Of a DNA stretch of 64,000 nucleotides, positions 28,954-39,645 are shown piece after piece. The position numbers and the translations under genes were made by a program. The DNA comes from Streptomyces sp. NBC_01294 (GTDB lineage: Bacteria; Actinomycetota; Actinomycetes; Streptomycetales; Streptomycetaceae). The DNA lies in the NCBI RefSeq assembly GCF_035917235.1, contig NZ_CP108423.1, positions 5,113,501-5,177,500 of the forward strand, read 5' to 3'. Position 1 is the stretch's first letter. Every line of letters begins with the position of its first letter. The notes under the pieces are model-generated. The model was not told where the DNA came from and did no database searches. It worked only from the letters and a program-made list of their open reading frames with translations.

Positions 28954-30066
28954 ATGAGTGACACTGGTGGCGCACTTCGACAGGAGGGCGGGAACGGCAT
29001 CCGGGGCACCGCGCGGGGCCGGGCGGGCGTGCCGCTCTCCGTCCTGGACCTGGTCACCGTGGGCGCCGGCAGCACCGCCCACGACTCCTTGCGCACCAGC
29101 GTGGCGATAGCCCGGCTCGCAGAATCCCGCGGGTACCACCGCCACTGGGTCGCCGAGCACCACTCCATGCCCGGCGTCGCCAGCTCCTCCCCGGCCGTGA
29201 TCCTGGCCCACCTCGCCGCGCACACCTCCCGCATCCGGCTCGGATCGGGCGGGGTCATGCTGCCCAACCACGCCCCGCTCGCCATCGCCGAGCAGTTCGG
29301 CACCCTGGAGGCGCTCGCCCCGGGGCGGATCGACCTCGGGCTCGGCCGCGCCCCCGGCACCGACGGCCGCACGGCCGCCGCGCTGCGCGGACCCGGGCGC
29401 CTGGACGAGGCCGCGGACGAGTTCCCCCGGCAGCTCGCGGAGCTCACCCGCTTCCTCGACGACGACTTCCCGGACGGGCACCCGTACGCCCGCGTGCACG
29501 CCGTACCCGGCCCGGTGCAGGGCTCCGCCGGACGGCCGCCGATCTGGCTGCTCGGCTCCTCCGGCTTCAGCGCCCGGCTGGCCGGCGAACTCGGCCTGCC
29601 CTTCGCCTACGCCCACCACTTCTCGGCCGCCGGCACCCTGCCCGCGCTCGACCTCTACCGGCAGGCCTTCCGGCCCTCGGCCGTCCTGGACGCCCCGTAC
29701 GCCGTCATCGGGGTCTCGGCGCTCGCCGCGGACACCGACGGGGAGGCCCGCGCGCAGGTGCTCACCGGCGCGCTGTCGATGCTGCGGCTGCGCACCGGGC
29801 GGCCCGGGCTGATCCCGACGCCGGAGGAGGCGGCGGCGTACCCCTTCTCCCGGCCGGAGCGTGAGTTCGTGGACAGCTGGCTCTCGAACGTCGTCCACGG
29901 CACCGCCGACGAGGTCCGCACCGGGCTCGACGACCTCGCCAAGCGGACCGGCGCGGACGAGCTGATGCTGACGGCCAACACCCACAGCGGGGCGGCCCGG
30001 TTGCGTTCGTACGGCCTCGTCGCAGATGCGTACGGCATGCCCGTGGAGGCGCCCGCGGCCGATTGA
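28954..30066 (+). CDS. LLM-class flavin-dependent oxidoreductase
   Basis: 370 residues. Luciferase-like TIM barrel: SVLDLVTVGAGSTAHDSLR, RGYHRHWVAEHHSMPG, IRLGSGGVMLPNHAPLAIAEQFGTLEAL and RIDLGLGRAPGTD, the characteristic MsnO8-like block. It uses FMNH2 for mono-oxygenation or reduction of unknown substrates. ATG 28954 lies close behind GACGGGAGCGACG. The terminator at 30135 ends the unit. Probably controlled by the divergent IclR protein. Confidence 0.87.
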   Translation: MSDTGGALRQEGGNGIRGTARGRAGVPLSVLDLVTVGAGSTAHDSLRTSVAIARLAESRGYHRHWVAEHHSMPGVASSSPAVILAHLAAHTSRIRLGSGGVMLPNHAPLAIAEQFGTLEALAPGRIDLGLGRAPGTDGRTAAALRGPGRLDEAADEFPRQLAELTRFLDDDFPDGHPYARVHAVPGPVQGSAGRPPIWLLGSSGFSARLAGELGLPFAYAHHFSAAGTLPALDLYRQAFRPSAVLDAPYAVIGVSALAADTDGEARAQVLTGALSMLRLRTGRPGLIPTPEEAAAYPFSRPEREFVDSWLSNVVHGTADEVRTGLDDLAKRTGADELMLTANTHSGAARLRSYGLVADAYGMPVEAPAAD

Positions 30067-30134
30067 CCGCGTGCGAACGGGGTTCGGCTGGTTTGTTGCC
30101 GAAACCTTGCGAGGGGGTGCCTGAAGGCAGCCTT

Positions 30135-30167
30135 AAACCGCTCGTCACCCGGGGTGGCGAGCGGTTT
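30135..30167 (+). terminator. Terminator after the LLM gene
   Basis: Stem AAACCGCTCG paired with CGAGCGGTTT (10 bp perfect, further pairs inside). Confidence 0.88.
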
Positions 30168-30211
30168 CTGATGTGCGCTCAGGTCTCTGACAAGGGGATT
30201 TGGGTCGGGAG

Positions 30212-30269
30212 TGGTCTAGTCCTTCTTTGGTCCGAACCATTGACGCGGGGCTGGAGTGATCGCTATCAC
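30212..30269 (+). promoter_or_regulatory. Chitinase promoter with two 12-bp direct repeats
   Basis: TGGTCTAGTCCT (30212-30223) and TGGTCCGAACCA (30228-30239) are a direct-repeat pair of the streptomycete chitinase/DasR type. A TTGACG -35 at 30240-30245 and TATCAC -10 at 30264-30269, 18 bp apart, lie just downstream. This arrangement predicts chitin-dependent control. Confidence 0.7.
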
Positions 30270-30320
30270 TGCTCTCACCTGAACTTCTTGCTCTCCCCTC
30301 CCACCCCCACGGAGCAGTTC

Positions 30321-32015
<1,695 letters not shown>

Positions 32016-32181
32016 TCTCCCCCCACCCCGCGCCGAGCGACGCCCCCGCCCTGTCCCCTCTCCGGGGGCGGGGCGGAGGTGTGTCACATGTTTACCGGAT
32101 TCCCGACATCGCGTCGCAGTGGTGTCGTTACGCTCGGCTATGTGCGAATCCGACCCGCGTCTACATGGGGGTGACCGTCCC

Positions 32182-33030
32182 ATGGTCCAGGCCCGCGACA
32201 TCGATCCCAGCGCCTCGCCGCTGGACTACTACGGCTATGAGCTGCGCCGCCTGAGAGAGGACGCCGGCCTGAAGCAGGCCCAGTTGGGCGCGATCATCTT
32301 CTGTACGGGCTCCCTGATCGGCATGGTCGAGAACGGCCGAAGGGTCCCTACTCGGGACTTCTCCGAACGGGTCGACGCGGCCCTCGGGACGGGCGGGCAC
32401 TTCTCGCGGCTGGTCGGGCTGGTCCTGCGCAGCGTGTTGCCGACGTGGTTCCAGGCCTACGCGGAAATGGAGGCCCGGGCGGCGTTCATCTCCGCCTATC
32501 AGCCTCAGCTGGTGCACGGACTGCTCCAGACGGAGGCGTACGCGCGGGCTGTGCTGGCGAGCGGGCTTCCGGAACAGCTCGATGAGCTGGTCGCGGCCCG
32601 AATGGAGCGCCATCGCATCCTGCGCCGGGAGAAGCCGCCGATGGTCTGGGTGGTGCTCGACGAGGGAGTGCTTCACCGGTCGATTGGTGGTCGACAGGCG
32701 ATGCGTGAGCAACTCGCTCACCTGCTGAGCTTCCATGGGAACCGGTGGGTGCAGATCCAGGTACTCCCCAATGCGGCCGGCGAACACGCCGGCCTGATCG
32801 GGGCGTTCAACGCGATGCGGTTCGCCAACGACCCGGACTTGGTCTACACGGAAGACCTCATCTCGGGCCACACGACGGCCAACCCCGACACGGTCCGGGA
32901 AGCCGCGCTTCGTTACGCTCACTTGCAGGCCGCCGCTCTCTCTGTCGAGGACTCGGCGGCGTTGATCACCCGGGTCATGGAGGAGCGTTATGCGGAGCAG
33001 CCAGAACCCGACGGGCGCCTTGTGGCGTAA
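32182..33030 (+). CDS. Helix-turn-helix protein with DUF5753 (Scr1/WhiJ-like) domain
   Basis: 282 residues. N-terminal XRE helix-turn-helix (LDYYGYELRRLREDAGLKQAQLGAIIFCTGSLIGMVENGRR, about 10-55) and a C-terminal DUF5753 region (VHGLLQTEAYARAVLASGLPEQLDELVAARMERHRILRRE). Such regulators are numerous in Streptomyces and pair with small DUF397 proteins, as here (41-bp overlap). They influence development or antibiotic production, or may act as a toxin-antitoxin-like pair. An in-frame ATG at 32140 is possible, but 32182 fits the family N-terminus. Confidence 0.88.
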   Translation: MVQARDIDPSASPLDYYGYELRRLREDAGLKQAQLGAIIFCTGSLIGMVENGRRVPTRDFSERVDAALGTGGHFSRLVGLVLRSVLPTWFQAYAEMEARAAFISAYQPQLVHGLLQTEAYARAVLASGLPEQLDELVAARMERHRILRREKPPMVWVVLDEGVLHRSIGGRQAMREQLAHLLSFHGNRWVQIQVLPNAAGEHAGLIGAFNAMRFANDPDLVYTEDLISGHTTANPDTVREAALRYAHLQAAALSVEDSAALITRVMEERYAEQPEPDGRLVA

Positions 33031-33178
33031 GTCCAGCTACAGCGGGAACACCGGCGGCGACTGCGTCGAGGTGGCCGCGCAGCCCTGCCGGGTCGCCGTG
33101 CGGGACTCGAAGCGGCCCAACGGGCCTGTCTTCACCGTCGGGCCGGAGGCGTTCGCCGCGTTCGTCCGCAGCGTCTGA
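32990..33178 (+). CDS. DUF397 small protein, partner of the upstream regulator
   Basis: 62 residues, typical DUF397: LWRKSSYSGNTGGDCVEVA, VAVRDSKRPNGPVF and a C-terminal FAAFV stretch. The start lies inside the regulator's coding sequence (overlap 41 bp, different frame), so the pair is translationally coupled. DUF397 proteins bind and modulate their DUF5753 partner. Confidence 0.88.
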   Translation: MRSSQNPTGALWRKSSYSGNTGGDCVEVAAQPCRVAVRDSKRPNGPVFTVGPEAFAAFVRSV

Positions 33179-33193
33179 CCGGCGGAGCCACCG

Positions 33194-34180
33194 TCAGAGC
33201 CAGCCCTGCTGCGCCGCCTTGAGGCCCGCTTCGAAGCGGCTCGTCGCGTGGAGGCGTTCCATCAGGGCGGACATCTGGCGCCTGACGGTACGCAGGGACA
33301 CCCCGAGCCGCTTGCCGGCCGCCTCGTCCGTCATGCCCGAGGCCAGCAGCTTCAGCAGTTCGAGTTCGGTCGCGGTGGGGCGGGCGTCGCTGGGGCGGGG
33401 GCGGTCGGCTCCGAGCGGTACGGCCGAGGCCCACGTCTGCTCGAACAGGGTGGCGAGGGAGGCCACGATCCCCGGCGCGCTGGTGCACAGGGCGCCCAGA
33501 CGGGAGTTGCCGGGGTCGATGGGCACGACCGCGACCGTGCGGTCGAATATCAGCAGCCGCGGCGGAAGGAGCGGGCTGGTGCGCACCTGGCCGCCCTGCT
33601 CGGTGAGCCATCGGGCGTAGGCGAGCGTCGTCGGATCGTTGCGGGCGCTGTCCTGGTACACCGAGCGCATCTCGATGCCGCGGGCCAGCGCACGCTGGTC
33701 CAGCGGCCGGGAGGCCTCCAGGCTCGCCTCGGACAGCGCGCCGCCCGGCAGTATCGCCAGGCATTCCCTGACCAGGCCGTGGGCGAGCTGTTCGAGTCGG
33801 CCCTGGATGGCGTCCATCCCCACGAGCCGTTCCGCGCCGTCGACCTCGGTGTTGGGGGAGAGCTCGGCGAATTCGGAGACCACCTGCGCCGCGGCCGCCT
33901 TGCTGCGGGCCAGCTCCTGCTGCTGCCGGGCCAGTTCCTCCTCCTGGCGGCGCAGCAGCAGTTCCAGGCCCAGTTCGGGTCTCACCGCCCGCAGCGCGCC
34001 CGGGCAATCGCGTGACGGTCTGAGCAGGTCGAGGTCGACGAGCCGGTCCAGGCCCTCGCGGACCTGCGCCTGGGTGAGTCCGAGGCGGGCGCTCAGCTCG
34101 GCGATCCCTCCCGAGGGGTCGGCCAGCATGCCCCGGTACACGGCTTCCACGTCGGCACCGAGCCCCAGCGTTTGCAGCAT
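33194..34180 (-). CDS. TrmB/LuxR-type transcriptional regulator next to a secreted peptide gene
   Basis: 328 residues. N-terminal TrmB-like winged helix (GIAELSARLGLTQAQVREGLDRLVDLDLL, about 25-55), a coiled stretch (LLRRQEEELARQQQELARSK), a middle sensing domain, and a C-terminal LuxR/GerE HTH (PTATELELLKLLASGMTDEAAGKRLGVSLRTVRRQMSALM). Streptomyces has many such proteins of unknown ligand. The gene is divergent from the SINWD peptide gene across 266 bp that hold an 8-bp direct repeat. The stop is 15 bp from the DUF397 stop, convergent. Confidence 0.85.
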   Translation of the reverse strand: MLQTLGLGADVEAVYRGMLADPSGGIAELSARLGLTQAQVREGLDRLVDLDLLRPSRDCPGALRAVRPELGLELLLRRQEEELARQQQELARSKAAAAQVVSEFAELSPNTEVDGAERLVGMDAIQGRLEQLAHGLVRECLAILPGGALSEASLEASRPLDQRALARGIEMRSVYQDSARNDPTTLAYARWLTEQGGQVRTSPLLPPRLLIFDRTVAVVPIDPGNSRLGALCTSAPGIVASLATLFEQTWASAVPLGADRPRPSDARPTATELELLKLLASGMTDEAAGKRLGVSLRTVRRQMSALMERLHATSRFEAGLKAAQQGWL

Positions 34181-34257
34181 CTCCCAGTCCCCCGACTGTA
34201 GTTGGGCAGCCCCTGGCGAGCGCCGCCTCCGTGATCGTAGGCGAAGACTGTCACCAA

Positions 34258-34280
34258 GGTGCCAGACCTGTTGGTGCCAG
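34258..34280. promoter_or_regulatory. GGTGCCAG direct repeats between regulator and peptide genes
   Basis: GGTGCCAG at 34258-34265 and 34273-34280, 15 bp apart, with inverted ACCAAGGT nearby. Sits in the divergent gap; candidate site for the TrmB/LuxR-type protein. Confidence 0.4.
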
Positions 34281-34446
34281 CCGGAACCTCTTTTTCACAG
34301 GTGTCCAGGGCAGCAACATGGTGCTCACCGGGACGGCGGGGACGAGAGTCCCCGACTCAGGCCAGAGCCGCAAGGACGATCCGGATCAGCGCGCACCACA
34401 CCGCACCGAACGCATCGCTCACCGGCTTTCGACCTCGGGGGAAACC

Positions 34447-34632
34447 ATGTCCCGCACCGCCCGCTTCGCCGCTGCCGCCGCCGTCTTCACCGCCCTCTGC
34501 GCCGGCGCGCTCACCACCACCACGGTGACCGCCTCCGCCGAGAGCGGCCACCACGTCGGCGCCTCCGCCGAGGCCAGCATCAACTGGGACACGGCGCCCA
34601 CGTCCATCACGGACAGCATCAACTGGGACTAG
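34447..34632 (+). CDS. Small secreted peptide with duplicated SINWD motif
   Basis: 61 residues. Signal peptide (MSRTARFAAAAAVFTALCAGAL; cut near ASA/ESG). The mature part is about 28 residues and contains EASINWDTAPTSITDSINWD, with the last five residues repeating SINWD. The two repeats are encoded by the same 15 bases AGCATCAACTGGGAC (34576-34590 and 34615-34629). The start is preceded by GGGGGAAA. No known family was recognised. Position next to a regulator gene and size suggest an extracellular signal or a precursor cut to release the repeats; that is inference. A Cys is present only in the signal peptide, so disulfides are not expected. Confidence 0.72.
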   Translation: MSRTARFAAAAAVFTALCAGALTTTTVTASAESGHHVGASAEASINWDTAPTSITDSINWD

Positions 34633-34637
34633 CCGGC

Positions 34638-34913
34638 ATGCGCGTCATCCGGGCCTCCCTCTCCGGACCTTGTCATGGCCCTGATCGGAGCGGTGCGCTC
34701 GCGCTCGTCTCCGATCTGATCTGGGCCCACACGCCCGCGGCGCACGGACTCGAACACCTGCGGACCAAAGCCGCCGACGACGGCGTGGACGTCTACCTCT
34801 TCCTGCGCGCCGCCTCCGAGGCCGCAGCCCTCCACCAGGCCCGCGCCATCCTCGACGGCGCCCGCGCCCCTCTGCGGGCGCACGGCTACAGCACCACCGA
34901 GCCGCATCGCTGA
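34638..34913 (+). CDS. 91-residue unknown protein downstream of the SINWD peptide
   Basis: Starts 5 bp after the peptide stop. Sequence begins RVIRASLSGPCHGPDRSGALALVSDLIW and has a helical C-terminal half (LFLRAASEAAALHQARAILDGA). No signal peptide or membrane span, so it is probably cytosolic. It may process or bind the peptide or be an unrelated small protein; no family was recognised. Near-contiguous coding with the peptide and GC-rich third positions support it as real. Confidence 0.6.
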   Translation: MRVIRASLSGPCHGPDRSGALALVSDLIWAHTPAAHGLEHLRTKAADDGVDVYLFLRAASEAAALHQARAILDGARAPLRAHGYSTTEPHR

Positions 34914-34955
34914 CGGCATCCTCGCCCCCCCACGAACGTTCCCCAGGAGAACGCA

Positions 34956-36161
34956 GTGACCACCACCCTCCGTCAGGCTGCCCGCAAGAGCGCGGTCGCC
35001 GCCCTCTCCACCGCGATCGGTGCCGGACTGCTCACCGCCGCGTCCGTCGCCACCGCCCCGGCCGCACAGGCCGCGACGAGCTGCAGCGGGACGGCCTCGA
35101 TCTACGGCATCCTTCCCGACGGCCGCCTCACCTTCAGCACCATCACGCCCGCCACCGGCGAGCTGAAGAAGGTGCTGGTCGGAGCCGACCTGGGGTTCGA
35201 GCCGAAGGCGATGGCCACCCTCAACTTCAACACCATCCTCGTCACGTCGACGACCGGTGCGCTCTACCGCCTCGACGTGCTCACCAACAACACCTCCCTC
35301 GTCCTGGAGCGCCCGCCCGTCAAGCTCTTCGACAGCGGCTGGACCCACGACAAGCTCACCTACGACGGCCACGGGCACCTCTACGGCACCGCGGGCGGCG
35401 TCCTGATCCAGTACCTGGTCTCGCAGCCCAAGCCGACCGGCTCGGCGCACATCGGCCAGCGCAAGGAGATCGGCGGCGGCTTCGTCCTGAAGACCCTCAC
35501 GGCCGCCGGCGACGACCGGCTGCTCGCCACCACGTCGGCCGGCGCGCTCTACTCGTACAAGATCAGCGGCGACGGCAGCTGGGACCGCGACGACCTCAAG
35601 ACCGCCGGCTGGTCCGGCTTCGACCAGGTCGTATCGCCTGGTGGAGGCCTCTACTACGGCCGGATCGAAACCACGGGCGCCATGTACTGGTACAAGGACG
35701 CCAACCCGGCCGACGGCACCGGCACGGACATCGCCTACCACAACGACACCCCCGTCAACACGGGCGGCTGGACGCAGAAGCTCCTCTCCGCCCAGCCGGC
35801 GACCTTCAGTTGCACCACCACCGCGGACCCGCTCGACGGCAGGGACATACCCGCGGTGAAGGCGGCCGGCCGCGATCTGATGAACAAGCACGACGGCGGT
35901 GCCTGGAACAACTCCACCCAGTGGAACTGTCTGGAGCAGCTCTGGGACAAGGAGAGCGGCTGGCGCTACTGGGCCGACAACCCGAGCTCCACGGCCTACG
36001 GCATCCCCCAGGCCCTGCCCGGTTCCAAGATGGACGCCTTCGGCGACGACTGGCGCACCAACCCCGTCACCCAGATCAGGTGGGGCCTGTCCTACATCGA
36101 CGGCCGCTACAACACGCCCTGCGGCGCCTGGACCCACTTCCTGAACAACAACTGGTACTGA
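34956..36161 (+). CDS. Secreted tachylectin-like propeller fused to a lytic-transglycosylase-like domain
   Basis: 401 residues. Signal peptide (cut near AQA/ATS, about 40). Residues about 45-290 form tachylectin-2-like propeller repeats (SIYGILPDGRLTFSTI, FNTILVTSTTGALYRLD, GHLYGTAGGVLIQYL), a sugar-binding fold. The C-terminal 105 residues (WNCLEQLWDKESGWRYWADNPS, AYGIPQALPG, GLSYIDGRYNTPCGAW) resemble SLT/aggregation-promoting-factor-type muralytic domains, with Glu in WDKESGW as candidate catalyst. GTG 34956 has AGGAG. It shares its propeller with the next gene, so the pair arose by duplication with swap of the catalytic end. Confidence 0.85.
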   Translation: MTTTLRQAARKSAVAALSTAIGAGLLTAASVATAPAAQAATSCSGTASIYGILPDGRLTFSTITPATGELKKVLVGADLGFEPKAMATLNFNTILVTSTTGALYRLDVLTNNTSLVLERPPVKLFDSGWTHDKLTYDGHGHLYGTAGGVLIQYLVSQPKPTGSAHIGQRKEIGGGFVLKTLTAAGDDRLLATTSAGALYSYKISGDGSWDRDDLKTAGWSGFDQVVSPGGGLYYGRIETTGAMYWYKDANPADGTGTDIAYHNDTPVNTGGWTQKLLSAQPATFSCTTTADPLDGRDIPAVKAAGRDLMNKHDGGAWNNSTQWNCLEQLWDKESGWRYWADNPSSTAYGIPQALPGSKMDAFGDDWRTNPVTQIRWGLSYIDGRYNTPCGAWTHFLNNNWY

Positions 36162-36262
36162 GCCGCCGCTCCCGCCGCGCCGTACCTCCTCCTTCTGCTT
36201 CCTCGTTCCCCTCCTCCAGCCCGACGCGAGTACGTCAGGGCTGCCCGAATCCGGAGACACCC

Positions 36263-37573
36263 ATGTTCTCGTCGTCCCTCAAGCGCCGCCTCGCCGCCAC
36301 CCTCGCCGTCGGCGCCACCACCCTCGGCCTGGTCACCGTCACCTCGGCCCCGGCCCAGGCCGCCGCCATCTGCGGCGGTGACGTGTCCGTCTACGGCGTC
36401 CTCGCCGACGGACGCCTCACCTACACGGCGATATCCCCCAATACCGGCGACCGGGTCAAGACCCTGATCGGCTCGAACCTCGGCTTCACGCCGAAGGCGA
36501 TGGCCACCCTCAACTTCAACACCGTCCTCGTGACGTCCACGGCCGGCGAGCTGTACCGCGTCGACATCCAGACCAACGACAACGCCCTGGCCCTGGCCGG
36601 AGTCACCAGGATCTGGGACAGCGGCTGGACCTTCGACAAGATGACCTACGACGGCGCCGGCCACCTCTACGGCACGGTCGCCGGCCAGCTCCACCGGTAC
36701 AACGTCTCCCAGGCCAAGCCCAGCGGACCCGCCCACATCGCCAAGCACGCGGTGATCGACGACGGCTTCGTCCTCAAGACCCTTGCCGCCGCCGGAGACG
36801 ACGTCCTCATCGCCAGCACGGCCGACGGCAGGCTGCTCTCCTACCAGATCAACGGCGTCGGCGACTGGGAGAGCTCGGAGCTCAAGAGCAGCGGGTGGTC
36901 GGCGGTCGACAGCCTGGTCTCGCCCGGCGGCGGCCTCTACTACGGCCGGACGAACGGCGGCATGTACTGGTACCACGACGCCGACCCCACCGACGGCAAG
37001 GGCGACGACATCGCCTACCACCCCGCCGACCCGGTCGACGCGAGCGGCTGGACCCAGACCCTGCTCTCCGCCTTCGCCAACGACTGCACCTACCGGCCGC
37101 CGGTGCCCCCCACCCCCACCCCCTCCACCAAGGGCGGGCAGATCGCCCGCAGCGAGATCATGAGCCGCGCCGCGAACTGGCTGAGCCGTGACATCCCGTA
37201 CAGCCAGAGCGCGTACGCCTCCGACCCGGACGGCGACCACACCTACCGCACCGACTGCTCGGGCTTCATCTCCATGGCCTGGCACGCCGCCACCAGCTAC
37301 ACGACCGCCAGCCTTCCGAGCGTCAGCACCACGATCTCCAAGTCCGACCTCCAGCCCGGCGACGCGCTGAACACGTCGAGCGGGCACGTGGTGCTCTTCG
37401 AGAAGTGGATCGACAAGGGCGCCGGGAAGTTCTCGTACATCCACGAGTCCAACCCGAACGACGACATGATGCGCGGTCAGGACTACCTCAACGGAGGCAC
37501 CGACGGACGCATCGCCGGCCACGCCGCCTCGGGCTACGTCGCCCTGCGCTACGACAACGTCGTCAACGGCTAG
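36263..37573 (+). CDS. Secreted tachylectin-like propeller fused to an NlpC/P60-like domain
   Basis: 436 residues. Signal peptide (cut near AQA/AAI). The propeller (SVYGVLADGRLTYTAI, LGFTPKAMATLNFNTVLVTST, GHLYGTVAGQL) aligns with the upstream protein nearly blade by blade. A Pro/Thr linker then leads to an NlpC/P60-like domain with DCSGFISMAW (Cys), SGHVVLFEKW (His) and a polar third region (HESNP). It is expected to cut peptidoglycan stems. ATG 36263 follows CGGAGAC. The tandem neighbour has the same lectin but a glycan-cleaving-type domain, so the two could attack both bond types at one binding site. Confidence 0.85.
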   Translation: MFSSSLKRRLAATLAVGATTLGLVTVTSAPAQAAAICGGDVSVYGVLADGRLTYTAISPNTGDRVKTLIGSNLGFTPKAMATLNFNTVLVTSTAGELYRVDIQTNDNALALAGVTRIWDSGWTFDKMTYDGAGHLYGTVAGQLHRYNVSQAKPSGPAHIAKHAVIDDGFVLKTLAAAGDDVLIASTADGRLLSYQINGVGDWESSELKSSGWSAVDSLVSPGGGLYYGRTNGGMYWYHDADPTDGKGDDIAYHPADPVDASGWTQTLLSAFANDCTYRPPVPPTPTPSTKGGQIARSEIMSRAANWLSRDIPYSQSAYASDPDGDHTYRTDCSGFISMAWHAATSYTTASLPSVSTTISKSDLQPGDALNTSSGHVVLFEKWIDKGAGKFSYIHESNPNDDMMRGQDYLNGGTDGRIAGHAASGYVALRYDNVVNG

Positions 37574-37641
37574 AGCCCGCCCGGCCCACGTCCCGGCCCC
37601 GGCGGCCGGACCCCGGCAGGCCCGTCCCGTCCCCCTGGTTC

Positions 37642-39645
37642 TCAGACGAGGGGGTGCGGGGCGGGCTCGTCGGGCTGTGCGGCGGCCGCAACGGAGGCGG
37701 GAGCCGAGTCGGCAGCCGTGGCCACGGTTGCGGCCGAGGCCGCTTCCGCCGCCTGGCGGACGATCATGCGGGCGATCACGTCCGGGGCCACCGCGCGGGA
37801 GTAGAGCCAGCCCTGTCCCGTGTCGCAGCCGACACGGCGCAGCCGGGCCGCCTGCCCGGGCGTCTCCACGCACTCCGCGGTCACCGTCAGGCCCAGCCGG
37901 TGCGCGAGCTGGACCAGGGCCTCGACGATGGTCTCGTCGGCCGGGTTGGGGTGCGTGCCCTCCTCGTAGCGGAAGCCCCGTACGAAGGAGCCGTCCAGCT
38001 TCAGCACCGAGACCGGCAGCCGGCTGAGGTAGGCCAGGTTCGAGTACCCGGTGCCGAAGTCGTCGATCGCGATCCGCACGCCCATGTCGCTCAGTGCCTG
38101 GAGGGCCTGCAGCGGGCGGCCCGCCGAGCCCATGACCGCCGACTCGGTCAGCTCCAGCTGCAGCAGCTGCGGTGCCAGGCCCGTCTCGGCGAGGATCTCC
38201 GCGACGTCGCCCACCAGGTCGGAGTCCCACACCTGCCGCACGGCCACGTTGACCGAGACGAAGACCGGCGCGTCGCTGGGCTGCTCGATCTGCCAGCGCC
38301 GCGCCTGCCGGCAGGCGGTCTTCAGCACCCACTGCCCCAACTGGACGATGGAGCCGTCCTCTTCGGCAATTCCGATGAACCGATTCGGCGTGAGCGTGCC
38401 GAACTGCGGGTGCTTCCAGCGCACCAGGGCCTCGACCCCGCGCACCGCACCGCTCTCCAGGTCCACCAGCGGCTGGTACTCCAGCTCGAACTCGCCGCGC
38501 TCCACGGCCGGCCGGAGCGTGGAGGAGAGCGCCTGGCGGGTCATGCGGTGCGCGTTGCGCTCCGGGTCGAAGAGGGTCCAGCGGGCCTTGCCGTCCGCCT
38601 TGGCCCAGTACAGGGTCGTGTCGGCGGCCTGCATCAGCCCGGTCGCCGAGGTGCCGTCCGTCGCGCGCTCCACGACCCCGATCGACGCGGAGACCGACAG
38701 CCGCTGCCCGGCCAGGTCGAAAGGTTCCTGTACGGCGGCCAGGACGCTCCGTGCCAGGTCCGCGAGCTGTTCGGTGCCGGTGGAGTCCTCCACGAGCAGG
38801 GCGAACTCGTCGCCGCCGAGCCGCGCGACCAGGTGCCCGCCGGTGCGCCCGTATCCGGACTGGTCGGCGCACTGGGTCAGGCGGGCGGCGACGGCGGTCA
38901 GCAGCCGGTCGCCGACCCGGTGGCCGAGGGTGTCGTTGACGGCCTTGAACCCGTCGAGGTCCAGGTAGCACAGGCCGATCCGGCCGGTGCCGCCGCCGTG
39001 GTCGTAGGAGGAGGCCTCCAGGGCGGCGGAGAGCCGCTCGAAGAACAGCGCGCGGTTGGGCAGCCGCGTGACCGGGTCGTGCATCTGGAGGTGGCGCAGC
39101 CGGGCCTGGAGGTCGCGCCGGTCGCTGATGTCGGAGACGGACAGCAGGACGTCCCCGGTCCCGGGTACGGGCCCGAGCGTGACCTCGGTCCACAGCGAGT
39201 GCCCGTCGGGGTGCTTGAGGCGCCGGGTGCAGCGCAGCCGGGCCTGCCGGCCGCGGAGCACCTCCTGGTACGCGGCCCAGGTGCGGGCCTCCGCGGCCAG
39301 GTCCACCAGGTCGGCGGCGCATCGGTGGACGAGCGCGTGCGGCTCGCTGCCCAGCAGCCCCGCGAACGCCTGGTTGGCGGCGACCACGTAGCCGTCGCGG
39401 TCGACGACGGCCATGGCGAGGTGGGCCGCGTTGAAGGCGGCCCGGTAGTCGCGCAGCTCGGACTCGGCGCGGCGGGGCGACGCCGGGTCGGCCGAGTTGG
39501 CCGGGATGGCCGGGATGGTTGGGATAGCCGGGATGACCGGATTGACCGAGGTCGACGGCACCGCCGGCACTGCCGGGTGACGCTCCGTGATGGCCGATCG
39601 GATGCTGTCGGCCGCCGAACCGGTTCCTTCTGAGGTTCCGCTCAC
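37642..39645 (-). CDS. PAS-GGDEF-EAL cyclic-di-GMP enzyme
   Basis: 667 residues. Repetitive Pro-Ala-Ile N-terminus, PAS domain (about 65-185), GGDEF domain with RLGGDEFALL, EAL domain with EALVRWKHP and NVNVAVRQ, ending in a degenerate Ala tail. Both signatures are intact, so synthesis and hydrolysis of c-di-GMP are possible; the architecture matches Streptomyces RmdA-type proteins, but the locus is not proven. c-di-GMP controls sporulation timing in Streptomyces. GTG 39645 start; convergent with the lectin hydrolase gene. Confidence 0.9.
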   Translation of the reverse strand: MSGTSEGTGSAADSIRSAITERHPAVPAVPSTSVNPVIPAIPTIPAIPANSADPASPRRAESELRDYRAAFNAAHLAMAVVDRDGYVVAANQAFAGLLGSEPHALVHRCAADLVDLAAEARTWAAYQEVLRGRQARLRCTRRLKHPDGHSLWTEVTLGPVPGTGDVLLSVSDISDRRDLQARLRHLQMHDPVTRLPNRALFFERLSAALEASSYDHGGGTGRIGLCYLDLDGFKAVNDTLGHRVGDRLLTAVAARLTQCADQSGYGRTGGHLVARLGGDEFALLVEDSTGTEQLADLARSVLAAVQEPFDLAGQRLSVSASIGVVERATDGTSATGLMQAADTTLYWAKADGKARWTLFDPERNAHRMTRQALSSTLRPAVERGEFELEYQPLVDLESGAVRGVEALVRWKHPQFGTLTPNRFIGIAEEDGSIVQLGQWVLKTACRQARRWQIEQPSDAPVFVSVNVAVRQVWDSDLVGDVAEILAETGLAPQLLQLELTESAVMGSAGRPLQALQALSDMGVRIAIDDFGTGYSNLAYLSRLPVSVLKLDGSFVRGFRYEEGTHPNPADETIVEALVQLAHRLGLTVTAECVETPGQAARLRRVGCDTGQGWLYSRAVAPDVIARMIVRQAAEAASAATVATAADSAPASVAAAAQPDEPAPHPLV

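Follow-up and report, generated by a model that had tools for sequence, protein, structure and literature searches.

A candidate peptide-signalling locus joining a TrmB/LuxR-type regulator, a tryptophan-repeat peptide and wall hydrolases in Streptomyces sp. NBC_01294

In the RRNPP systems of Bacillota (Rap, Rgg, NprR, PlcR and PrgX), the gene of a small secreted precursor lies beside that of a cytoplasmic DNA-binding receptor, and the functional unit of the precursor is short and often C-terminal. Several copies of one short unit with spacers between them are found in the secreted yeast alpha-factor-type precursors, and peptide-regulated secreted wall hydrolases are known from the competence-controlled fratricins of Streptococcus, which depend on sensing by a membrane histidine kinase. 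TrmB proteins bind sugars, and the TrmB fold is a sugar-binding fold in archaea. Peptide signals are described for Bacillota, with those of Actinomycetota typically being small molecules made by enzymes, according to an excerpt of PMC10075063; cyclic or modified peptides and butyrolactones are listed for Actinomycetota as well (PMC4748050). For Streptomyces, an excerpt of PMC9640686 postulates an imported oligopeptide signal and gives the BldK signal of Streptomyces coelicolor as a 655-Da peptide, with strains possibly using different peptides, and an excerpt of PMC11303876 states that BldK takes up the BLD261 oligopeptide; no sequence of the BldK-imported signal was found in either excerpt. 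A literature search for a system with the parts described below yielded no description, and among the matches listed for the unit words of the peptides, none was on this system by title.

The window analysed here is a 64,000-nt stretch of Streptomyces sp. NBC_01294 (GCF_035917235.1, NZ_CP108423.1, positions 5,113,501 to 5,177,500, forward strand), of which positions 33194..37573 were studied. This locus comprises a regulator gene on the reverse strand, followed on the forward strand by the genes of a small peptide, a 91-aa protein (p91) and two propeller proteins.

The regulator (33194..34180, reverse strand, 328 aa) is predicted to consist of a TrmB-like winged HTH, a coiled coil, a PLD/TrmB-like middle domain and a C-terminal LuxR/GerE HTH. 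A Pfam scan up to E 1 returned GerE, which passed the cut-off, together with other HTH models, a weak DUF6879 match and a TrmB match below threshold (15.0 bits versus a cut-off of 25.6). Searching with the predicted structure (pLDDT 83.8, pTM 0.58), Foldseek placed TrmBL2 best (E 4e-12) and PLD folds next, the middle domain resembling 5bpd, 3qph and 2f5t. By fold, the predicted winged HTH at the N-terminus and the PLD-like effector domain resemble those of archaeal TrmB/TrmBL2, but the protein has an extra C-terminal LuxR HTH and linked secreted repeat peptides. The GerE-type C-terminal HTH is common to LuxR/LuxI systems; no autoinducer-binding domain N-terminal to it was detected in the scan up to E 1, and acyl-homoserine-lactone quorum sensing was rejected on this ground. 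As in RRNPP systems, a small precursor gene adjoins the regulator, but the Pfam scan revealed no TPR and the model matched TrmB/PLD folds instead, so that membership was rejected; identical multi-copy units and a Streptomyces host are further differences.

The peptide gene (34447..34632, forward strand) encodes a putative secreted precursor of 61 aa with a signal-like N-terminus and the C-terminus SINWD-TAPTSITD-SINWD-stop. The two 15-bp SINWD copies (34576..34590 and 34615..34629, forward strand) are identical, the second reaching the stop codon. The 25 proteins found for it are hypothetical where named and carry no Pfam domains. The peptides directly upstream of p91 in related loci (see below) end at the stop in SINWD, VIGWD, GIGWD or similar, with 1–6 copies counted. 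Exceptions in detail were the peptides of loci L092 and L095, without a clear signal sequence, and those of L087 and L098, with a C-terminal extension past the W unit. A multi-copy unit with spacers in a secreted precursor recalls the yeast alpha-factor type, although organism, processing and receptor are all unrelated. Five bases after the peptide stop begins p91 (34638..34913, forward strand), the N-terminus of which is not signal-like by eye. The 69 proteins found for it have no Pfam assignment and are hypothetical where named; the predicted fold is ferredoxin-like (beta-alpha-beta-beta-alpha, pLDDT 92.9), and comparison with the PDB gave no match at E ≤ 0.001, the best matches being generic. 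Like every other element of the locus, the divergent regulator and 61-residue peptide with two SINWD copies, as well as the closely following 91-residue frame, were found at the coordinates given in the initial annotation.

The grouping of the five genes proposed there was supported by 48 related loci of the window branch. The regulator was present in 46 of them (43 by the gene caller, which missed or lacked it at L003, L009, L092, L095 and L098), p91 in 44, with a motif-ending secreted peptide directly upstream of it in 38 of the 44, and secreted wall hydrolases of the propeller group in 35. Among genes of at least 100 aa, only the regulator and hydrolase groups were widespread, the next group occurring in 8 loci; p91 mostly falls below 100 aa and is therefore outside this count. 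A RiPP locus was rejected, as no conserved modifying enzyme occurred among these genes and p91 has no known family. An XRE-DUF5753/DUF397 pair and a GH18 chitinase in the neighbourhood were likewise rejected as module parts, since by tblastn no more than 4 of 27 loci (L002, L005, L008 and L010) had the three together. A divergent secreted ORF with a W motif lay upstream of 27 of the 43 regulators versus 5 of 204 control genes; peptides of the same family account for two of these five. Fisher's test gave 4e-20, a value overstating independence because the loci are related. Absence of the peptide beside homologous regulators had been named as counter-evidence; a W peptide in some form was recognised in all but three of the 48 loci (L014, L027 and L091). 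Farther afield it was not recognised in 11 of 30 loci from the L081 search, in 20 of 25 from the L064 search and in any of the 12 loci examined of families f18 and f19, and most regulators examined outside Streptomyces were without one by the filter used.

A sister branch of the family, matched in 113 of 121 sampled Streptomyces, allowed a closer look at the units. Twelve of the 90 sister loci examined were dropped because the stretch used did not contain the regulator frame in full. Each of the other 78 had W-centred units in a divergent peptide, which was sought either by a signature at its N-terminus or by the combination of a signal-like start and W. They yielded 52 distinct dominant [D/E/N]xxWx units. 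Copies matched at 4.66 of 5 positions within a peptide versus 2.33 of 5 between peptides, with agreement at unit positions 2 and 3 of 98% and 96% versus 24% and 20%, respectively; the linkers drift, flanking positions matching at 16–34% except +4 (53%). Codon differences between copies (1470 comparisons, unit positions 1–3) were 363 synonymous versus 13 nonsynonymous, implying that selection, and not merely recent duplication, keeps the unit constant.

Unit type co-varied with the regulator's middle domain when the remainder of the protein was controlled for (partial r 0.40, 0/2000 permutations), whereas control for the middle domain left hardly any co-variation with that remainder (partial r 0.05, 112/2000 permutations); the ten most strongly co-varying columns all fell within the middle domain, to which 88 of the 173 variable columns belong. 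The main result against this link came from a control: the signal sequence, too, co-varied with the middle domain (partial r 0.31) and with the remainder (partial r 0.34). Across 39 independent pairs, the two measures used gave Spearman coefficients of 0.38 (p 0.016) and 0.30 (p 0.066). An early 25-row test had left out 5 of the first 30 sister loci, which are included in the 78-row test; co-variation and codon selection were computed on the sister branch only. The co-variation of the unit with the putative sensing domain lends moderate support to the peptide being a ligand. The initial annotation had not noted that the window peptide belongs to a large family, whose units differ and whose other members lie near further TrmB-LuxR regulators.

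At the divergent promoter, a 32-bp operator-like element (TGTCACCAAGGTGCCAGACCTGTTGGTGCCAG, 34249..34280, forward strand) was found, consisting of TGGCACC-NN-GGTGCCA plus TTGGTGCCA and agreeing with the consensus at 26 of 27 scored positions. The consensus was derived from an alignment of 24 intergenic regions, and the loci drawn on were later scored too; a score of at least 20/27 was reached in 36 of 48 loci; of the 20 stretches not used for the alignment, 13 matched, and the top score in a shuffle control (one shuffle per locus) was 19. The ungapped scan did not find the element in 12 of the 48 loci. In the own genome, a shortened pattern matched 34249..34280 with 1 mismatch and one other site with 3 mismatches, and the reversed control pattern had two matches. 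Where the peptide operon and the regulator are apart, at L019, L025 (second peptide) and L028, the element accompanies the operon, and it is also present at the operons of L092 and L095, where 16 kb examined contained no regulator. A second element, the GGTGNNCACC palindrome (34320..34329, forward strand), is conserved in the same alignment, and CAACAT directly before it is a possible −10 candidate. Sigma-70 promoter and terminator scans of 33100–37800 were both empty.

The best reading of these data is that the multi-copy precursor peptides may act as ligands of their neighbouring regulators, pheromone-like and with a non-RRNPP receptor, and we assign a probability of roughly 0.6 to the locus being a peptide-signalling module that is complete in itself and has wall hydrolases as its output. 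The course of events that we infer, from processing, import and binding to the operon structure, the sign of regulation and what p91 does, is as follows. The signal sequence would export the peptide, and extracellular cutting would release short units containing or ending in SINWD; a unit would re-enter the cell, oligopeptide importers such as BldK being present in Streptomyces, and bind the regulator at its PLD/TrmB-like middle domain. The regulator would act via the operator-like element, most likely as an activator of peptide, p91 and both hydrolases as one operon, giving a positive loop that p91 probably tunes inside the cell. If so, the locus would resemble the BldK system, whose oligopeptide is a developmental signal, in combining an extracellular oligopeptide with permease uptake.

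The proposed output consists of two secreted proteins. One (34956..36161, forward strand) ends in a lysozyme-like aggregation-promoting-factor domain (AggPromo_Cterm, E 2.1e-35; no Pfam domain above cut-off). The other (36263..37573, forward strand) has a tachylectin propeller above the Pfam cut-off and a C-terminal NlpC/P60-like domain with a DCSGF motif, which scored below it (14.7 bits versus 23), the cut-off being passed by the relatives at L080 (27.8) and L023 (23.8). As the initial annotation had it, both share a propeller and differ in their C-terminal domains; the two proteins are about 60% identical over 237–264 residues. Of the peptide-controlled wall-attack system suggested there, the gene linkage was supported, sensing of the peptide and control of the genes by the regulator are predicted, and attack on other cells and remodelling of the own wall fit the enzymes equally well. 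Proposed peptide regulation of secreted wall hydrolases recalls the fratricins, which differ in their histidine-kinase sensing and have no propellers.

The frequent presence of these hydrolases would also suit a peptide that works outside the cell, binding the wall or the propeller hydrolases to guide, inhibit or activate them, with the regulator answering another cue. Its W repeats could be multivalent ligands, and at L092 and L095 peptide, p91 and hydrolases occur in an examined stretch that contains no regulator. Against this stand the moderate link of unit type to the regulator middle domain and three further regulators of the family in the own genome with W-unit peptides nearby, where no wall-hydrolase domain was found in the 20 neighbouring proteins scanned. 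We regard such an effector role as unlikely, though the foremost of the alternatives; judging by the three loci, the core seems to be the regulator–peptide pair, with the lectin-hydrolases as one cargo.

Given the sugar binding of the archaeal TrmB fold, the regulator might sense a sugar or a fragment of the wall, the peptide then being an output with an unrelated job, e.g., a protease decoy or an antimicrobial. The structures resembling the middle domain and the wall hydrolases among the outputs agree with this, but strain-specific units with strict copy agreement, and their moderate co-variation with the sensing domain, would not be expected of a plain output, and we consider sugar sensing slightly less probable still.

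Propellers are related within a locus and of different types between loci, and some loci carry additional cargo containing DNase-like or Rv2525c-like domains, as a competitor-killing cassette might, in which peptide and hydrolases are the weapon, the propeller is swapped to change the target and p91 confers immunity. However, p91 without a signal-like start is an unlikely wall shield, and Rpf-like and NlpC/P60-like enzymes also serve normal growth and germination; we deem this improbable, and it would not exclude signalling. A repeat that arose by chance in a frame that is non-coding or evolves fast, conceivable for a short gene of high GC, is ruled out for practical purposes by the peptide–p91 adjacency, the same architecture in dozens of loci, the few positive control genes and the mostly synonymous drift within the sister-branch unit.

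Returning to the signalling reading, the regulator–peptide pairs in many Streptomyces look like an undescribed peptide signalling family. At about even odds, Streptomyces may possess a large family of strain-specific tryptophan pentapeptide pheromones ([D/E/N]xxWx, xIGWD/xINWD, x[G/S]WQ) with secreted, often multi-copy precursors and TrmB/PLD-LuxR receptors, the hydrolase cassette of the window being one output; some could be the oligopeptide signals taken up by BldK-type permeases. The peptide genes beside candidate receptors provide exact sequences for synthesis and a receptor class outside RRNPP, and with them a possible handle on development, wall lysis and silent pathways. Agreement within peptides combined with diversity between strains looks like pherotypes, so that orthogonal channels for engineering might exist.

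The five genes of the locus described in the initial annotation were all confirmed: a regulator (34180..33194, minus strand) facing a small secreted peptide (34447..34632, plus strand), the 91-residue partner protein p91 (34638..34913, plus strand) and two hydrolase genes (34956..36161 and 36263..37573, plus strand), in a genome of 8.5 Mb. The nearest named relatives of the regulator are from Streptomyces (96% identity). A domain scan revealed a LuxR/GerE helix-turn-helix at its C-terminus, and a structure search with its model (pLDDT 83.8, pTM 0.58) matched archaeal TrmBL2/TrmB and PLD-like folds. At its C-terminus the peptide reads SINWD-TAPTSITD-SINWD; five bases separate its stop from the start of p91, which was modelled as a ferredoxin-like fold (pLDDT 92.9) for which the structure search gave no PDB match at E ≤ 0.001. 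The two proteins encoded 3' of p91 are secreted, the first with an aggregation-promoting-factor domain and the second with tachylectin and NlpC/P60-like domains. The module is adjoined by an XRE-DUF5753/DUF397 pair and a GH18 chitinase (31978..33178 and 30063..32015), all found together in 4 of 27 relatives, and a PAS-GGDEF-EAL protein (37642..39645) is convergent with the last hydrolase gene.

Searching genome contigs with the regulator yielded 27 loci, and a p91 profile matched in 76 of 392 Streptomyces genomes (E ≤ 0.001). Linkage was established in 48 loci (the window, these 27 and 20 further stretches), whose mutual relatedness means that the counts are not independent events: the regulator is present in 46 and p91 in 44, and 38 of these 44 p91 genes are immediately preceded by the gene of a peptide ending x[IVLAYMF][GNSA]W[DE]. 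The units at this position are SINWD, SISWD, VIGWD, VISWD, AIGWD, GIGWD, TIGWD, AVAWD and GYNWE, in 1 to 6 counted copies per peptide, with further copies possible in locus L007 due to a masked run. In four other loci (L022, L028, L088, L099) the peptide lies at another place in the stretch, the L081 peptide carries DMGWQ, a tail extends beyond the W unit in L087 and L098, and no W peptide was found in the stretches of L014, L027 and L091. When genes of at least 100 residues from the 48 loci were clustered, only two clusters spanned most of the loci: the regulators, which the gene caller placed in 43 loci, and the hydrolases (69 proteins, 35 loci); the third-ranking cluster occurs in 8 loci only.

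In a control, a divergent secreted small ORF with [ISTLVDMAF][GNS]W was found upstream of 27/43 regulators versus 5/204 other genes, and with a C-terminal motif upstream of 27/43 versus 2/204. Two of the five control matches are family peptides themselves (L019, L028). Part of the regulator misses result from the ORF filter: the L007 peptide exceeds its length, that of L022 is probably rejected for its hydrophobicity, and a distance of about 2-3 kb separates peptide and regulator in L080, L084 and L093.

Alignment of 24 intergenic regions revealed an operator-like element (34249..34280, plus strand), TGGCACCAAGGTGCCAG-N5-TTGGTGCCAG, followed farther along by CAnCATGGTGntCACCGGGAC. It is present in 36 of the 48 loci with a best ungapped score of at least 20/27, and 13 of the 20 stretches outside the alignment are among these 36; in a control of one single-base shuffle per locus, the best score was at most 19. 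In the window's genome, a shorter pattern matched the window site with one mismatch and one other site with three, and the reversed control pattern gave two matches. The element accompanies peptide operons away from the regulator (L019, L028 and the second peptide of L025) and is also found in operons of L092 and L095, with no regulator within the 16-kb stretch. The ungapped scan gave no element in L080, the second copy in the window's genome, and its relatives L084 and L093, so that different copies possibly use different sites. Judging from its position, the regulator would bind this candidate site and activate. In L028 (8107-9720), an SLNWD-ending peptide and the element precede a 413-residue protein that falls outside the common hydrolase group and represents another kind of cargo. 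L092 and L095, which have no nearby regulator, combine operator, p91 and hydrolases with very short peptides that lack a signal sequence (26 and 21 residues counted from the probable ATG); L095 also contains an altered second copy ending VIGYTPDPLIHH.

Besides the two window hydrolases, 30 downstream proteins were scanned (29 of the hydrolase group and one from L020). Domains found were Rpf-like transglycosylase (PF06737; 9/30), CHAP (8/30), NlpC/P60 (5/30; two above and three below cut-off), Rv2525c-like glycoside hydrolase (2/30) and endonuclease/exonuclease/phosphatase (2/30); four had no catalytic Pfam match, two of these carrying a DCSG motif. A typical locus encodes one protein with a peptidase-like domain and another with an Rpf-like or aggregation-promoting-factor domain. 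The propeller is tachylectin, FG-GAP or without Pfam name depending on the locus, and tails vary too. Local alignments, catalytic parts included, within the 28 loci with at least two hydrolases gave best matches of 31% to 99% identity, with about 60% for the window pair and 97-99% over more than 220 residues in L016, L080, L084, L093 and L098. The near-identical stretch in these five is mostly the C-terminal propeller or tail. The targeting part may possibly undergo locus-wise exchange or gene conversion. Proteins in L018 (800-2509) and L019 (3679-4749) join the endonuclease/exonuclease/phosphatase domain to FG-GAP repeats and are possibly secreted DNases; in L080 (3703-5622) and L098 (9870-12014), the Rv2525c-like domain is joined to the shared tail.

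The window's genome encodes seven such regulators that are complete or almost complete, five of them with a small secreted [GN]W-unit peptide within about 3 kb: SINWD (window), GIGWD (L080), DMGWQ (L081), NGWQ (L064, past the regulator 3' end) and three copies of DTGWT (L066). Among 20 neighbouring proteins scanned around the last three, a subset of the neighbours, none had a wall-hydrolase domain. The L066 branch, a sister branch, matched at 1e-30 in 113/121 Streptomyces genomes, paralogues included. From 90 sister loci (30 from a genome search and 60 stretches), 12 without a full regulator frame in the stretch were left out; all 78 remaining have a divergent peptide, with 52 distinct dominant units (e.g., DTGWT, DSTWV, EISWS, DPGWH, NSTWP, EPSWE) in 1-10 copies. 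Among 30 loci for the L081 query, a [GS]WQ-ending peptide is present in 15, another four belong to the window type and 11 have none; with L064, four of 25 end NGWQ, one FNWD, and 20 have none convincing. A class-wide regulator search at 1e-40 matched 71/246 genomes in 23/103 genera, and 5 of 29 further loci have family-like W peptides (L249, L250, L253, L258, L263), only L253 being outside Streptomyces. The 11 loci of family f18 and the single f19 locus examined showed no W peptide. Sister-type regulators often occur in tandem in other genomes. In the window's genome, the sister pair (L274, 3796000-3812000) lies between clpB-like and dnaJ/dnaK genes, and proteins with NRPS condensation and thioesterase domains are encoded a few kb from the DMGWQ pair (L081, 3656000-3672000).

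In the sister branch, selection on the unit is evident. Within a peptide (68 peptides with at least two copies), copies share 4.66 of 5 positions, versus 2.33 between peptides (3003 pairs), with 98% versus 24% at position 2, 96% versus 20% at position 3 and 74% versus 13% at position 5. Flanking positions agree at 16-34%, except for +4 (53%), which is proline in 90/251 sister copies and in 11/19 copies of eight hand-picked window-type peptides. Recent duplication alone is insufficient as an explanation, since 1470 codon comparisons at positions 1-3 of copy pairs, which are not independent, gave 363 synonymous differences versus 13 nonsynonymous ones.

Unit distance correlated with distance in the PLD/TrmB-like middle domain of the regulator (r 0.56) and in the rest of the regulator (r 0.43), with partial values of 0.40 (0/2000 permutations) and 0.05 (112/2000), respectively. 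In a control, the signal sequence, with partial values of 0.31 and 0.34, tracks both regulator parts about equally, in contrast to the unit, whose partial value with signal-sequence distance also held constant was 0.41. For 39 independent pairs, Spearman correlation was 0.38 (p 0.016) or 0.30 (p 0.066). The ten most associated columns are all in the middle domain (window regulator residues 140, 150, 152, 153, 155, 161, 163, 164, 212 and 227). This co-variation of sequences moderately supports specificity.

Among 5.8 billion proteins searched, there were 69 matches to p91 and 25 to the peptide, the window's own included; named ones are hypothetical or uncharacterized, and none has a Pfam domain. 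No description of the regulator-peptide system was found in the literature searched, a scope that left out preprints and most subscription journals. PMC10075063 presents quorum sensing by peptides as a trait of Bacillota, PMC9640686 describes a 655-Da peptide for BldK and suggests that different strains may use different peptides, PMC11303876 describes BldKB, and PMC3543389 offered on this subject only bldJ and bldK strains and references. A link of the W-peptide family to BldK is a lead only.

Taken together, a signalling reading appears likely, in which, in the simplest account, the unit of the precursor peptide would be the ligand of the adjacent regulator; we infer processing, uptake and binding of the peptide, the operon structure, the sign of regulation and the role of p91. 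The window-type system would work similarly to peptide quorum sensing and is no RRNPP member, since the receptor fold differs; yeast alpha-factor and streptococcal fratricins are systems for comparison. In the window branch, wall hydrolases would be the output of the peptide/regulator pair.
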